Shown piece after piece: positions 4,933-38,964 of a DNA stretch of 38,964 bases. Position numbers and translations under genes: made by a program. Numbering within the stretch: position 1 is the first letter of the stretch; the number at the start of each line of letters is the position of its first letter. The DNA is from a virus, in the IMG/VR virus record IMGVR_UViG_3300037502_001564, positions 1-38,964 of that record; one strand, 5' to 3'. Below the pieces are notes generated by a model. The model saw only the letters and a program-made list of their open reading frames with translations. It made no database searches and was not told the origin of the DNA.

Positions 4933-5006
4933 CCCAACAGACCTGCCCACCCTGTAACAACAACTGCAACCAAGGCCGCGACTGCCCGGCGAGGAGAGGG
5001 AAATGA
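4929..5006 (+). CDS. Cysteine-rich micropeptide, 25 aa
   Basis: The frame reads MTQQTCPPCNNNCNQGRDCPARRGK: four cysteines, in two pairs (CPPC and a C-x5-C with the CNQGRDCP element), and a basic tail. Both ends overlap neighbours by ATGA, which is the main support for translation. The element CNQGRDCP is one I have seen at the end of many small phage proteins. Four cysteines could bind one zinc ion. It is far below usual gene-calling limits. Confidence 0.5.
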   Translation: MTQQTCPPCNNNCNQGRDCPARRGK

Positions 5007-7186: not shown

Positions 7187-7695
7187 ATCAGTCTCCTGAG
7201 AAAAGCGGACAGAGCCGCGAGAAACCCAGACTTCGGCGCAACAGGCGCTGGCTGGGGTCTTGCCTTCGCATACCAGCTTGGCACCGAGAAGCCTGGGCAA
7301 GCCTTGGCAGCGTATTGGTTGTGACCCGAAATCGTCCTGATCGTCGGGTGGTCCTTCAGCAATCGCACCAGCAGATCCTGCAAGGCTCGATCCTGCTCAG
7401 GCGTGAAATGATCGGAAAACTTGTCATCGGACGATGCGCCATGCCCGCCGAAAAGCGCGACCGCGATGGTCCCTGTATTTTTGCCTTTGGTGTGAGATCC
7501 GACCTGATCCAAAGGACGGCCCGCGACCGTAGAACCATTGCGGTCGATCAGAAAATGATAGCCCACGTCCTTCCATCCGCGACCGTTCACATGCCAGCGG
7601 CGTACCTCGGCAACCTTGTCGGCAGTGTTGCGCGTGATCCACCAATCAGGCGGCGTGGCCGTGCAGTGAACGATGACCTCGTTCAGCGGTCTCAT
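7183..7695 (-). CDS. Endolysin: N-acetylmuramoyl-L-alanine amidase (T7 lysozyme type)
   Basis: The 170-residue enzyme cleaves the bond between N-acetylmuramic acid and L-alanine in peptidoglycan. Zinc ligands His10 (VIVHCTAT), His125 (SGHNQY) and Cys133 (KACPGF) are in place, with Tyr46 and Lys131 at the positions that assist catalysis in T7 lysozyme. The domain fills residues 1-140 and a Pro/Ala-rich linker leads to a short basic, hydrophobic C-terminal helix (LAALSAFLRRLI). There is no signal peptide, so export depends on the holin encoded just downstream, whose start overlaps this stop (ATGA). Confidence 0.92.
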   Translation of the reverse strand: MRPLNEVIVHCTATPPDWWITRNTADKVAEVRRWHVNGRGWKDVGYHFLIDRNGSTVAGRPLDQVGSHTKGKNTGTIAVALFGGHGASSDDKFSDHFTPEQDRALQDLLVRLLKDHPTIRTISGHNQYAAKACPGFSVPSWYAKARPQPAPVAPKSGFLAALSAFLRRLI

Positions 7696-7934
7696 TTTCC
7701 GACCTTGGAAATGAGCGCCTTTATATCGTCGCGGATCTCGGCCAGCATCTTGTTGGTCTCGTCACGTGCCTGGCGCGATGCTTCCAGATCCTCACGGCGC
7801 TGGTTCCAAAGCCGCTTGATCTCTTTGGTGTTCTCTGCGCTGCCAGCCTCAAGACGCACCAGCCACACAACGACCGCAACGAAGCTAACCGCCACTGGCC
7901 AATATGCAAAAATACCTTCCATCGCGGCCCTCAT
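7692..7934 (-). CDS. Membrane-anchored coiled-coil protein of the lysis region, 80 aa
   Basis: One hydrophobic span at about residues 8-26 (FAYWPVAVSFVAVVVWLV) is followed by a long charged helix with heptads (residues 30-77) rich in Glu, Arg, Lys and Asp. This resembles the small phage proteins encoded next to the endolysin, sometimes annotated as holin-like or DUF2730-like. It may be a second holin, an antiholin or an accessory protein. It is coupled to both neighbours by ATGA. Confidence 0.6.
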   Translation of the reverse strand: MRAAMEGIFAYWPVAVSFVAVVVWLVRLEAGSAENTKEIKRLWNQRREDLEASRQARDETNKMLAEIRDDIKALISKVGK

Positions 7935-30607: not shown

Positions 30608-30632
30608 TGGCGATCCTCCCTCGCTGATGCTT

Positions 30633-30673
30633 GGGCCGGTTGAGGTTTGCAGACCTCCCGGCCCGTTTCTTTT
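30633..30673 (+). terminator. Hairpin with T-run reading on the + strand
   Basis: GGGCCGG (30633-30639) pairs with CCGGCCC (30658-30664), and inside it GAGGT (30642-30646) pairs with ACCTC (30653-30657) around a six-base loop. On the + strand the stem is followed by GTTTCTTTT, the form of a factor-independent terminator. All flanking genes are on -, so it would either stop antisense transcripts coming from 30 kb or act as a stable 5' leader structure of the late mRNA. Confidence 0.6.
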
Positions 30674-30728
30674 ACATCATCAGCCGCGCTGGGTCAAAGG
30701 ATGGATTATCGGCATTTATTCCCATTTA

Positions 30729-30749
30729 TTCGGACAATGCCTGTCCGAA
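30729..30749. promoter_or_regulatory. Perfect palindrome TTCGGACA / TGTCCGAA
   Basis: Eight-base perfect arms with a five-base spacer (atgcc), overlapping the last base of one CATTTAT motif. The half-site TGTCCGAA recurs at 30965-30972 and a TGTCCG at 30866-30871. It looks like an operator for a dimeric protein, possibly a phage regulator or replication initiator. Confidence 0.5.
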
Positions 30750-30794
30750 GAAATAGCAATCACTAACCTCTTGTTTTCTTAGGAGAATAGTAAA

Positions 30795-30821
30795 GGGGGG
30801 GGGATGGGGGGTATATATATA
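30795..30821 (+). other. G-run block followed by TATATATATA
   Basis: Nine consecutive G, then AT, six G and the alternating TATATATATA. A C-rich tract with several runs of four or five C follows to about 30860. Separated G and C runs could fold as a long hairpin or G-quadruplex when single-stranded, and the TA block would melt easily. Homopolymer of this length is also a typical place for sequencing error. Confidence 0.45.
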
Positions 30822-30919
30822 CACTTCTTCCCCCACCCCCTCCCATTCCCTCTCCACCCTATCCTTGTCCGTTCTGAACTGCCGGAATAAATGGGATAAA
30901 TGGCATAAATCAAAAAGAC

Positions 30920-30948
30920 AAAAAAAATCAGGGGCTTAACCCCTGATT
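30920..30948 (-). terminator. Factor-independent terminator after the primase gene
   Basis: AATCAGGGG (30926-30934) and CCCCTGATT (30940-30948) form a perfect nine-base stem with a five-base loop. On the - strand it is followed by eight T (complement of 30920-30927). It lies 25 bases beyond the stop of the leftward primase gene, so it most likely ends the HTH-primase transcript and separates it from the late operon. Confidence 0.85.
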
Positions 30949-30954
30949 AAGCGT

Positions 30955-30972
30955 TTCGGATAAATGTCCGAA
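30955..30972. promoter_or_regulatory. Second TTCGGA / TCCGAA palindrome
   Basis: Six-base perfect arms (30955-30960 and 30967-30972) with a six-base spacer that contains most of an ATAAATG motif, so iteron and palindrome are nested. It abuts the primase stop codon. Same arm sequence as the palindrome at 30729. Confidence 0.45.
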
Positions 30973-33273
30973 TTATTCCCCCGGCACAAACCAAGCCATG
31001 CGCGGCCTGCCCTTCTGTCCCTCGTTCACATTTCGACAAGCGATGCCTTTGTCTTGCACCAGCGCGTCAAGAACCTCCTGCCGCTTGCGCGGCTCAAGGT
31101 TTGCAAAGGCCCGGACGTTTTCGGAAAGTTCGCTGGCTGTGCAGCCGCGAAGGCCGGCCGCCTCGATCTTGGAATAGACGGCCTTGCACGCGGCCTCAAA
31201 CGGCCCGTCAGCGAGCGACCTGCGAAGCGCGGCCACCGCCCGTCCAGAATAGAAGGTCGCGTAGTCTATGGCCCACTGAAGGCTTGTGGCGCTGATCTGT
31301 TCCTCGCGGCGGGATCTGGCGACGATCAAGGCGATGCGCTGGGCGATTTCCTTTGTGCGGCCAAACATCGCCTCAAGCCCATACCGCTCATGCTCGTCCA
31401 TCTTGCGAAGCAGATCGATGTCGCAGGCGCGCAGGAGGTCGTGGCACTCGGGCGCGAATGAAATGGTGATTGGCGCGGGTGCGATGTCGAAGGTCTCGCC
31501 CGGCCCAAAGTTTCCATCCGATGCGGCGGCGCACTCTTGCGCCCACTCACACAGTTTCTCGCCAGGATCAACGCTGCGGACCATGCGCGAGGGCTGGCGG
31601 CCGATGTAGCTTTCCACAATCACGAAGCGGCCCAAGAAGCCGTCTGTGACGTATCGGCTTGAGAGGTTGTCGTAGAGCGTGCTGGGCGTGGTCATGCTCA
31701 TCAGGGTCAGGCTGGGGCAGCGCACCACCTTATCCAACTCCTTGGCCTGCTTTTCGGTGATGCCCATCTTGGAATAGCCTTGCGGGCGCAGAGTGCTGGT
31801 CTGCCGGCCAAACACCTCCATCAGGATGGTCTGGGCGTCTGTCTTGTGGTGGTTTCCTGCGGCTTGGGCTGTTTGTAGGACGCGGCCAAGCTCGTCGATG
31901 ATGCTCAGATGCGTTGGCTGCGAGACAAGGGCGGAAAAGACGCCGCTGGCGCTGGTGTATCCGCTCGGGCCGATCAGGTGTTCCAGCTTGGCGGCTTCAA
32001 GCAGGCGCTCCAGAACCGTCTTGGCATGTTCCTTTCCAGCGGCCGACTTGCCGACGTTGACGAAGTAAAGGCCGGACATATTAGACTGGTCAGTGACCCA
32101 GCGGCGGCCCATGACGACAGAGCCAAAGGCCAGAGCCGCTTGAACGGCAAACTGCGGCTGCTCCTTTGGGGCTGTGGTGTTGTAATAATGGACGGCCTCT
32201 TGCAGCACGCCGGGAACACCAAGCAGATGCTCAGGGATGTCTGACAGCGGCCCGGATGCTTCTTTTGGCTTGGCCAGGATCTGGGCAGCCACCTTGCGGC
32301 CATGCTCGATCTTTTCCGGCTCGTAATCATGCACCGGGTCAGACGAGACGTTGAGAAAATCAGCCGCGTCTTTGACGGCCTTGGTGATGTCCCCGCCATG
32401 CTCGTAATAGGACCAAAGTTCAAAGGCGTCGAAGGTGTGGGCGCTGTCGAAAGGATCGGATGCGTGGTGGCTGTAGGCTCGGCCGTCATCAAACAAGACC
32501 ACCCCGGCAAGACCGCTCTTGCTGTTGGGAGACAGATAGCGGCCGCGCGCGGTGGGGCGGTATCCGTAGCGCACAAGAAGCTCGTGCATGTCGTGGGCAT
32601 CATTGAAGGCATCAATGACGCTGGTGCGCTCGCTCGGCGCGCGTGGCTTGCGTGGAGGCTGAAACTCTTTGACGGGCGCCCAAGGGCAGATCTGCTGAAG
32701 CTGCGGCCTGAAGCGGTCCCACTCGGTCCAGAGGAGGAGAAGCGGCGCTGGGATCTCAGGCAGGCCGTCAAAGACGCTCGGCCCGGCCCAGGTGTATGGG
32801 CTTCCCGTGTCGGGATGGATCGACGGCGGCAGAACGTCCTGAACAGCGCCAGCGCGCAATTCAAACACGACCTCGGTTTTGCGGGGATCGCCCTGCACCG
32901 GCCAACTGATCTTGTGGGTTTTCAGCCCCTCTGGCGCGCGGAAAAGCACCTTGCCGCGATCAGGACGGCCGACGATCTTTGGCGCTGATGCAATGATTGC
33001 ATCGTAATCAATGCCGAGAGCCTCAAAGATGAGGCGGGTGTGGGCCACATTGTCTACATCAAGGGCGCAGGTGCCTGACGGCCCGTGCAACAGGCCCATG
33101 TTGTGCGATGGGTTGGCGGTGAAATATGCCTCGGCCTTTTCTGGGTCAGAGATGGCGCGCTCCGGCTGCTGCCAGCCAAAGGATGTCGGCCCCTTTGTTC
33201 CGGCAGGCATGGCCACCAAGAACCATCCAATGTCTGACGTGTAGCGGCGCGCAAATGATGCTGCGTCACTCAT
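30973..33273 (-). CDS. Primase-polymerase / DUF3987 helicase
   Basis: The 766-residue protein has an N-terminal bifunctional primase-polymerase (Prim-Pol) domain: residues 1-170 with MPAGTKGPTSFGW, the metal-binding DVD at 72-74, and LPPSIHPDTG near 148-157 with the PS-x-H element. The second half is a DUF3987-type helicase/ATPase with GKSAAGKE at 408-415 as Walker A and LSIIDELG at 456-463 as Walker B. It would prime and unwind DNA during phage replication. The C-terminal 60 residues are a winged-helix-like region. It begins inside the stop of the small HTH gene (ATGAGTGA) and ends beside the iteron region, which supports a role at a nearby origin. Confidence 0.87.
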   Translation of the reverse strand: MSDAASFARRYTSDIGWFLVAMPAGTKGPTSFGWQQPERAISDPEKAEAYFTANPSHNMGLLHGPSGTCALDVDNVAHTRLIFEALGIDYDAIIASAPKIVGRPDRGKVLFRAPEGLKTHKISWPVQGDPRKTEVVFELRAGAVQDVLPPSIHPDTGSPYTWAGPSVFDGLPEIPAPLLLLWTEWDRFRPQLQQICPWAPVKEFQPPRKPRAPSERTSVIDAFNDAHDMHELLVRYGYRPTARGRYLSPNSKSGLAGVVLFDDGRAYSHHASDPFDSAHTFDAFELWSYYEHGGDITKAVKDAADFLNVSSDPVHDYEPEKIEHGRKVAAQILAKPKEASGPLSDIPEHLLGVPGVLQEAVHYYNTTAPKEQPQFAVQAALAFGSVVMGRRWVTDQSNMSGLYFVNVGKSAAGKEHAKTVLERLLEAAKLEHLIGPSGYTSASGVFSALVSQPTHLSIIDELGRVLQTAQAAGNHHKTDAQTILMEVFGRQTSTLRPQGYSKMGITEKQAKELDKVVRCPSLTLMSMTTPSTLYDNLSSRYVTDGFLGRFVIVESYIGRQPSRMVRSVDPGEKLCEWAQECAAASDGNFGPGETFDIAPAPITISFAPECHDLLRACDIDLLRKMDEHERYGLEAMFGRTKEIAQRIALIVARSRREEQISATSLQWAIDYATFYSGRAVAALRRSLADGPFEAACKAVYSKIEAAGLRGCTASELSENVRAFANLEPRKRQEVLDALVQDKGIACRNVNEGQKGRPRMAWFVPGE

Positions 33274-33442
33274 TGCTCTCGCCTTTCAGGTAATCTGACA
33301 GCTTGGTCAGCGTTGCCAGCGTCACGTTTTTCCCACCATCGGCGACGTGTTTGACGGTCGGATAGGAAAGCCCGCATCGCTCGGCCACAACAGTTAGTCG
33401 CCGGTCCTTAAGCATGTCCTGTATCTTGTGCAGTTCTAGCAT
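33266..33442 (-). CDS. Small Cro-like HTH regulator, 58 aa
   Basis: The frame from ATG 33442 reads MLELHKIQDMLKDRRLTVVA, then ERCGLSYPTVKHVADG, a classical helix-turn-helix with TVVAERCG as helix two and SYPTVKHVA as recognition helix, followed by NVTLATLTKLSDYL as closing helix. It is divergent from the recombination operon and overlaps the primase gene, so it probably regulates both sides from the 96-bp gap. It resembles XRE/Cro proteins without a peptidase part. Confidence 0.75.
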   Translation of the reverse strand: MLELHKIQDMLKDRRLTVVAERCGLSYPTVKHVADGGKNVTLATLTKLSDYLKGESNE

Positions 33443-33538
33443 TTTTGGCCTCGTTTTTTGAAATCATAAAAAACATCTTGCACATGCTGAAACATTCTGC
33501 AAGTGTGCCGGTGTTGGAAGTGAAAAAGAGAGGTTCGA
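33443..33538. promoter_or_regulatory. Divergent control region with TGCAAG half-sites
   Basis: CTTGCA (33477-33482) and TGCAAG (33498-33503) form an inverted pair with 15 bases between. A third TGCAAG at 33549-33554, followed by CTTGC after two bases, lies just inside the rightward gene. TATGAT on the - strand (complement of 33464-33469) is a good leftward -10 candidate with a weak upstream -35 (TTCAGC, spacing 17). GAGAGG before 33539 is the ribosome site of the rightward gene. This is the most likely operator for the HTH protein encoded at its left edge. Confidence 0.6.
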
Positions 33539-33916
33539 ATGACCAACGTGCAAGCACTTGCGCGGGACTGGCTTGAAGCCAAGCGCGCAGAAAACGCGGC
33601 CAATGCGGCCCGTATCAAGATCGAGACACAACTGGCCCAAGCGCTGGATGTTCCCGACGAAGGAAGCAAGACCCACAAGATCGACGGCTTCAAGGTTACG
33701 CTCACCCAGCCGGTGACGCGCAAGCTGGATGCTGCCGCTTGGGAAAAGGTGAAGCAGCATGTTTCGCCCGATTTGGCTCCGATCAAAGTGAAGCTGGAGC
33801 CTGACGCCACCGGCTGCAAATGGTTGGCCGAGCATGATGCGAAAACATGGCGCAAGATCGCGCCGGCATTTGAAACCAAGCCGGGCAAGATCGGCGTTAA
33901 AGTGGAGGAGGTGTGA
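33539..33916 (+). CDS. Hypothetical phage protein (DUF7173-like), 125 aa
   Basis: The protein starts with a charged helix (VQALARDWLEAKRAENAANAARIKIETQLAQAL), followed by SKTHKIDGFKVTLTQPVTRKLD near residues 43-64 and a C-terminal strand-rich part (TKPGKIGVKV). This 'helix, then G-x-KVT strand, then R-K-L/M-D' plan matches small proteins encoded just before Sak4-like ATPases, a group I know as DUF7173. It begins the rightward recombination operon. Function unknown, possibly an accessory factor of recombination. Confidence 0.7.
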   Translation: MTNVQALARDWLEAKRAENAANAARIKIETQLAQALDVPDEGSKTHKIDGFKVTLTQPVTRKLDAAAWEKVKQHVSPDLAPIKVKLEPDATGCKWLAEHDAKTWRKIAPAFETKPGKIGVKVEEV

Positions 33917-38546: not shown

Positions 38547-38834
38547 TTAGAGAGCCTCTCCACGATTGGTCGCGTCTTCGACCAGCTCGCCGCCGCAGGC
38601 CAGATAGCCGCAGCCATCGACCCAGTTGTCCGCGTGTGCCGGGTTCGACTTGGCGCGCGCCAGCTTCAGCAGGGTCATCATCACGGCCACGTCATGCGGC
38701 TTGATGTTCCGCCCGAGGTGGGCCGACCAGTATAGCGCCACCATATTAAAGTTTTGTTCCGCATCCCCATGAGTAGCAGCACGGTCTCGCGTGACATACT
38801 CTTTGGCGGTGTCGAGGATCTCGGAGCGGTTCAT
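38547..38834 (-). CDS. DUF6378-like conserved phage protein (right copy)
   Basis: The 95-residue product equals the left copy (1245-1559) over the first 45 residues, with Ser-to-Pro and Ile-to-Val changes and a shorter, different C-terminus (VEDATNRGEAL). DNA identity rises towards the gene start: two differences over the last ~260 bases of the window versus many near the 3' end. It shares the ATGA overlap with the HTH gene. Confidence 0.75.
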   Translation of the reverse strand: MNRSEILDTAKEYVTRDRAATHGDAEQNFNMVALYWSAHLGRNIKPHDVAVMMTLLKLARAKSNPAHADNWVDGCGYLACGGELVEDATNRGEAL

Positions 38835-38964
38835 GCTAGATCTCCCGGTTTAATCCAATTCGCGGCCTTGATGTCGCCGCCTGTGAGTTGCTCGATCTTC
38901 TTGGCAATCTCTGGCTTTGGCAGGCGCTTGCCGGTGAGGATCATGCTGATGACATCCTTCTTGG
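38831..38964 (-). CDS. HTH regulator, cut by the window end
   Basis: Only the C-terminal 43 residues are visible (from KDVISMIL to KPGDLA), identical in protein to the left copy at 1556-1774. One silent base differs (38837 versus 1562). The start would lie beyond the window. It almost certainly is the same gene as the left copy, seen again at a permuted end or in a duplicate. Confidence 0.75.
   Translation of the reverse strand, partial: KKDVISMILTGKRLPKPEIAKKIEQLTGGDIKAANWIKPGDLA

Follow-up and report, generated by a model that had tools for sequence, protein, structure and literature searches.

The DNA analysed here (the window) is the entire 38,964-base viral record IMGVR_UViG_3300037502_001564 of IMG/VR. 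A run of leftward genes spans about 8.7–33.4 kb of it. Read from right to left, the run comprises a small helix-turn-helix (HTH) gene, a primase–polymerase (prim-pol) gene, an intergenic stretch, an open reading frame (ORF) of 86 amino acids, a gene for a ParB-domain methyltransferase, and the terS, terL and portal genes. The HTH gene lies directly upstream of the primase gene and forms one operon with it, as it does in phages CRP-901 and CRP-902. Rightward genes, starting at about 33.5 kb, encode a Sak4-like protein, a DUF669/single-stranded DNA-binding-like protein, a Cas4-type exonuclease and a helicase. We describe the block of repeats and palindromes in the intergenic stretch. This block of about 250 bases, beside the primase–polymerase gene, is very probably the point at which replication starts.

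A first-pass annotation had listed six ATAAAT motifs, some in 9-bp phase, two palindromes, the tract G9-AT-G6 and a terminator within 260 bp, and every one of these elements was found where it had been described (table 1). The motif ATAAAT is located at 30887, 30896 and 30905 (the phased copies) and at 30960 on the plus strand, and at 30713–30719 and 30723–30729 on the minus strand (read as CATTTAT on the plus strand). These are the only six copies on either strand of the whole window; when the 365-bp intergenic stretch was dinucleotide-shuffled 2,000 times, the mean was 0.53 copies and no shuffle reached six. The block further contains both TTCGGA..TCCGAA palindromes (TTCGGACAATGCCTGTCCGAA, 30729–30749; TTCGGATAAATGTCCGAA, 30955–30972) and the single TATATATA that occurs in the window. 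G9-AT-G6 occupies 30795–30811 and is immediately followed by TATATATATA, which occurs once in the window. Along the primase strand come, in turn, a palindrome, the terminator, three TTTAT units phased at 9 bp, the TATATATATA G/C-tract hairpin, AAAACAAGAGGTTAG and the inverted TTTATTCGGACA-like pair. As in iteron-type origins, repeated sites flank an AT-rich region. The meaningful unit is longer than the 7-mer ATAAATG on which the first reading was based: it consists of TTTATTCGGACA, TTTCTTCGGACA and ATAATTCGGACA (30965–30976, minus strand) together with the phased array, and the site is better read as TTTAT-N-N-GGACA (TTTAT-N-GCA in marine phages). The terminator-like hairpin is part of the primase operon.

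Folding of a 317-nt stretch as single-stranded DNA gave a z-score of −3.9 (most relatives, −3 to −5.8; L009, L013, L214 and L039, weaker). In the window fold, the two arrays base-pair with each other, and the core hairpin is enclosed between them. No structured-RNA match to the block was found in Rfam. Since there are no DnaA boxes (TTWTNCACA) on either strand between 30601 and 30990, a DnaA-dependent origin was rejected.

Table 1. Features of the primase-proximal region of the window, with the evidence for each.
Feature	Position	Strand	Evidence
58-amino-acid Cro-like HTH protein; overlaps primase start	33266..33442	-	weak Pfam matches to HTH_26 and HTH_3, below cut-off; HTH gene at same place in CRP-901/902
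Prim-pol/DUF3987 primase, proposed initiator	30973..33273	-	Pfam PF09250 and PF13148; structure models; fold comparison; specificity column Ser714
Entire intergenic stretch, primase gene to next leftward ORF (365 bp)	30608..30972		orthologous stretch downstream of primase in relatives
Proposed origin, within/adjoining intergenic stretch	30711-30976		block begins at primase stop codon
Primase-proximal site: palindrome TTCGGACATTTATCCGAA and half-site ATAATTCGGACA; overlaps primase stop codon	30955..30976	-	kept in L004-L007 and L146
Terminator-like hairpin and T run; end of leftward HTH-primase transcript	30926..30948	-	kept in L004-L008
Array of three TTTAT units in 9-bp phase (ATTTATGCCATTTATCCCATTTATTCC on - strand)	30884..30910	-	9-bp-phase scan of 1.66 Mb
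Core: G9-AT-G6, TATATATATA (30812-30821), C-rich tract; hairpin possible; proposed DNA unwinding element	30795..30844		G/C-tract hairpin and TA-rich core in most relatives
Conserved element AAAACAAGAGGTTAG (marine form AAGAATAAGGGGTTTGG) between core and right-hand site; candidate initiation/priming region	30763..30777	-	alignment of 13 divergent phages
Inverted pair of complete sites: TTTATTCGGACA (30725-30736 +), TTTCTTCGGACA (30742-30753 -)	30725..30753		inverted pair here in most relatives; base 6 = T fits Ser714
Extra CATTTAT unit outside inverted pair	30713..30719	+	sequence
Weak promoter-like match TTGACC-17-TAAAAG for leftward methyltransferase/terminase genes	30669..30697	-	sequence; similar TTGAYC-like boxes seen by eye at same place in relatives

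The first-pass annotation had read the block as an origin and suggested looking at the same region in relatives; that comparison supports the reading well. A search with the primase gave 62 viral loci (designated by L numbers), and two more primase searches and one genome search added others. Relatives with primases 58–99% identical to that of the window have the same design downstream of the gene: TTTAT repeats phased at 9 bp, a hairpin formed by G/C tracts, an AT-rich core and a site built as an inverted repeat. The block is 85–95% identical in L004–L007 and L146; in L003, the core is 98% identical and is displaced by 0.7 kb by an inserted gene. At primase identities of 58–73%, the sequence is mostly replaced and the plan is kept (phased TTTAT, G/C hairpin, TA-rich core, the conserved AAG-GG-TT element and an inverted pair of sites). 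Among the marine phages, the block can lie 0.6–4.7 kb from the primase gene, with unrelated genes between them. The CRP-901-type roseophages, with a related primase (59% identity), show the same origin architecture, with TTTATTGCA sites.

Sites were also counted, by one scoring rule throughout, in 31 non-redundant loci, each with at least 2.5 kb of downstream sequence. A score of at least three was reached downstream in 23 of the 31, and none of 43 upstream controls reached two. Among the eight low scorers, L233, L237, L241 and L200 do have the block, that of L200 being situated just past the scanned stretch. An unbiased scan of 1.66 Mb for at least three hexamers in 9-bp phase retrieved this array family and otherwise only coding repeats. 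A search of IMG/VR with an 18-base core pattern was discarded, as it returned mostly unrelated AT-rich matches (L145, L147–L150, L154 and L155).

Two observations on annotation concern these relatives. A convergent inserted gene, apparently of one family, separates primase and block in L003 (6325–6855) and L161 (after 5290), and diverged sites precede it. The annotated hypothetical gene CRP901_gp06 (1614–1892) overlies the origin-like block (L242, approx. 7560–7930; CRP-901 record, approx. 1610–1980) and may not be a real gene.

The block design follows the primase, and not the terminase, the methyltransferase or the upstream HTH gene. L004 has a primase 98% and a block 95% identical to those of the window, with only 58% identity for the methyltransferase and 78% for terS; L003 has a 99% identical primase and a 98% identical core, with different packaging genes. 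Conversely, portal or terL is shared at 92–98% and this primase is absent in L066, L067, L068, L070, L118 and L126. L066 (portal 98%), L118 (portal 93%) and L065 (methyltransferase 93%), all without this primase, carry other repeats around their own TATATATA; L070 (terL 93%) and L126 (terL 97%) have no such block. Because virion-related phages without this primase carry other repeats, a swap of the replication module appears to swap the repeats as well. The differing repeats (CTAACTTCG-like and GTGTAAAC-like) are found around TATATATATA at the same place, at 1400–1810 in L065, 2400–2810 in L118 and 3940–4230 in L066, and are probably further, unrelated origin types.

The sites left and right of the core vary between phages and match within a phage: there are 193 shared 7-mers, compared with a permuted mean of 78 (a value as high was obtained in 0 of 20,000 permutations), and 101 shared 8-mers, compared with 14 in composition-matched shuffles. 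No left–right sharing was detected in L019 and L161. Judged from these sequences, a single protein would read both sides of the core.

The N-terminal domain of the primase is of the archaeo-eukaryotic primase (AEP) type (Prim-pol, PF09250, E 5e-22, residues 8–175), and its ATPase part matches DUF3987 (PF13148, E 3e-12), a predicted helicase family different from superfamily 3 (SF3) (PMC5862659). The last 87 residues are modelled twice as a winged helix (approximately residues 691–762); for the domain in isolation, the mean predicted local distance difference test score is 78. In fold comparison, this C-terminal domain matches winged helices best (Z 10.0, root-mean-square deviation 1.9 over 66 residues). 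Comparison of the primase profile with solved structures gave no match with an E value of 0.1 or lower, and no Foldseek match to the small C-terminal domain had an E value below 0.001; the absence of the P4 origin-binding domain among the Foldseek matches listed carries no evidential weight.

Residue 714, in this predicted winged helix, predicts base 6 of the site in all 52 phages compared, their base-6 classes being assigned by rule in 35 sequences and by hand, from complete sites, in 17 freshwater ones. Ser goes with T in 26 phages, Arg with G in 23 and Ala with C in three; the window has Ser714. The residue was spotted by eye ahead of the full column scan, in which it is the sole zero-error column among 536 variable primase columns. 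Residue 714 and base 6 also change in step on a tree from which the C-terminal domain was left out, with five changes each at coinciding places. Of 300 simulated labelings that likewise had five changes, none produced a zero-error column with at most four residue types, and six produced a zero-error column of any kind. L239 was left out, its primase match having stop codons. L161, with sites that are hard to read, was omitted from the class table; its TTTATGGGG words would fit (Arg, G). A rule linking base 7 to residue 715, inspected by eye, was inconsistent. The match across the 52 phages suggests that one residue of the primase tail decides base 6 of the origin sites.

We therefore consider it likely that the block is a replication origin read by the adjacent primase–polymerase through its C-terminal winged helix. 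This reading draws directly on the anatomy of the block, its conservation, its linkage to the primase, the left–right matching of sites, the predicted winged helix and the correspondence between residue 714 and base 6. The initiator that the first-pass annotation had postulated for the repeat is thus retained in a modified form: the evidence points to the primase winged helix instead of a separate HTH protein, and to a site of 9–12 bp instead of ATAAATG.

Several observations weigh against this reading. The classes of the 17 freshwater phages were set by hand; when base 6 in front of nGGACA was read automatically, the majority agreed with the class in 11 of the 11 phages with this site form. 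Among the units of the phased array, the window clade shows a mixture of G, C and T, the rule 'majority base after TTTAT' would class L004 as C, and L003 has one G arm next to T sites. Residue 714 is positioned where helix 2 begins, outside the classical recognition helix; its contact with the base is therefore a correlation, and the residue may act indirectly. No block was seen in the DNA retrieved for L017, L018 and L164. Finally, the GC-skew check suggested at the outset was uninformative. The raw cumulative minimum is 0–2.6 kb from the core in nine of nine genomes (within 60 bp in three), but fourfold-degenerate (silent) sites show no switch at the block. The raw minimum is attributed to coding composition, and the C and G tracts, through their own local skew, draw it toward the block too; skew was therefore dropped as evidence.

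Three other explanations were weighed. The block could be an origin in which the match between residue 714 and base 6 results from hitch-hiking, the primase 3' end and the block being exchanged as one segment while another protein reads the sites. Such joint exchange is conceivable because the primase 3' end and the block are often contiguous, as they are in the window clade; moreover, the changes that distinguish L008 from its neighbours cluster in the last 55 residues, and joint recombination could create part of the correlation, for L008 in particular. However, columns closer to the block predict worse, the match still holds for the marine blocks lying behind unrelated genes, and a single residue type corresponds to each base across all 52 phages. 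Joint recombination could account for single cases such as L008, but not for the distant marine blocks or the poorer nearer columns, and we judge this explanation unlikely.

It is less probable still that the repeats are a cluster of operators, bound by the 58-amino-acid HTH protein or by a late regulator and controlling the primase or late transcription. The shared operon with the primase, also seen in CRP-901/902, and the promoter-like boxes at the block edge are in line with it. The upstream HTH protein is nevertheless disfavoured as the reader, because L005 (base T) and L008 (base G) have identical 58-amino-acid HTH proteins and different sites, and because the best HTH column makes seven errors, compared with none for primase residue 714. 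The symmetric arrays around the AT-rich core would also be left unexplained, and a separate inverted repeat, CTTGCACATGCTGAAACATTCTGCAAG (CTTGCA..TGCAAG), precedes the HTH gene. The latter, in the divergent early promoter region (33443–33540), is unlike the iterons and is likely the operator of the HTH protein, itself probably the repressor of the HTH–primase operon. As for the control point for late transcription proposed earlier, the terminator-like hairpin and the weak promoter-like match at the block edge are the elements consistent with it; a promoter scan gave no site at threshold, that match included.

Least probable of all is a packaging site (cos or pac) in which the small terminase subunit, the product of a gene about 2 kb to the left, binds the repeats: the block does lie between the primase and the methyltransferase–terminase genes here and directly before a terS-like gene in L039, cos ends can have G-rich tracts, and contigs L008, L176 and L178 terminate inside the block, but the block tracks the primase rather than the packaging genes, being absent from L070, L126 and L066 with their closely similar terL or portal, the contig ends differ in place within the block, as assembly breaks at low-complexity tracts would, and the end repeats of G002 and G003 (121 and 112 bp) are away from it.

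For the origin read by the primase, we infer binding, melting, priming position and direction as follows. The winged helix would bind to either side of the core: to the inverted TTTATTCGGACA pair on one, and to the TTTAT array in 9-bp phase and the distal palindrome on the other. Oligomers loaded on both flanks would melt the TATATATATA core, assisted by the G/C-tract hairpin. The DUF3987 ATPase would then enlarge the bubble, and the prim-pol domain would begin synthesis on the exposed strand, possibly near AAAACAAGAGGTTAG.

The description of the origin as novel was too strong, since its plan has precedents in pRN1 and P4. The origin of the Sulfolobus plasmid pRN1 (ORF56/ORF904) sits just 3' of its prim-pol gene, and pRN1 shares with the window an AEP prim-pol, an ATPase/helicase part and a C-terminal winged helix (predicted in the window), with a small DNA-binding protein encoded upstream in the operon (PMC4234260). 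The order HTH, prim-pol, terminator and origin directly 3' is pRN1-like, and the window fold, with arrays paired round the core hairpin, recalls, in its position 3' of the gene and its folding potential (the z-score above), the large stem-loop that pRN1 needs for replication. The pRN1 origin has no iterons, and the motif recognised by pRN1-like replication proteins is stated to be unknown (PMC4234260). In contrast, clear iterons flank the window core, the helicase part is DUF3987 and not SF3, and the host is probably an alphaproteobacterium.

According to PMC4234260, the alpha protein of satellite phage P4 also unites primase, ATPase and C-terminal winged helix, and this winged helix binds the origin repeats (Ziegelin and Lanka 1995; Yeo et al. 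2002, both cited therein); unlike the AEP prim-pol of the window, the P4 primase is of the bacterial Toprim type, and the repeat sequences also differ. The window system combines the pRN1 and P4 plans and fits neither definition fully, having DUF3987 in place of SF3 and AEP in place of Toprim. P4 also needs a second region, crr. The prim-pol of phage NrS-1 starts sequence-specifically at 5'-TTTGGTTA-3' or GTG, and its priming-template specificity is ascribed to a helix-bundle domain (PMC8718748). GGTTAG and GTG near the window core resemble these prim-pol start sites, a likeness that we treat as a lead. In the searched text of the paper on CRP-901 and CRP-902, a replication origin is not mentioned (PMC10149686).

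Dozens of related phages, two of them in culture, supply sites, a candidate reading domain and a base-predicting residue. As these are now proposed, the recognition question for pRN1-like proteins can be tested with natural proteins and sites. They also offer a route to origins in many environmental phage genomes with uninformative skew. More broadly, we lean with some reserve towards the view that phages with a prim-pol/DUF3987 primase form a replicon family in which the primase reads its own iterons by the winged helix, following a one-residue/one-base rule (Ser–T, Arg–G, Ala–C), replicase and origin would behave as matched cassettes, and related phages may be barred from each other's origins.

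Two further observations were made on the sequences. The primase relative at 5001–7327 of L239, in a contig binned as a gammaproteobacterium, is either frameshifted or affected by an assembly error, because one frame holds 25 stops. At the end of the window contig, 328 bases (38637–38964) repeat positions 1362–1689 with 10 mismatches; the encoded protein resembles a DUF6378 protein of CRP-901, and the repeat is either a gene duplication or an imperfect circular overlap arising from strain variation.
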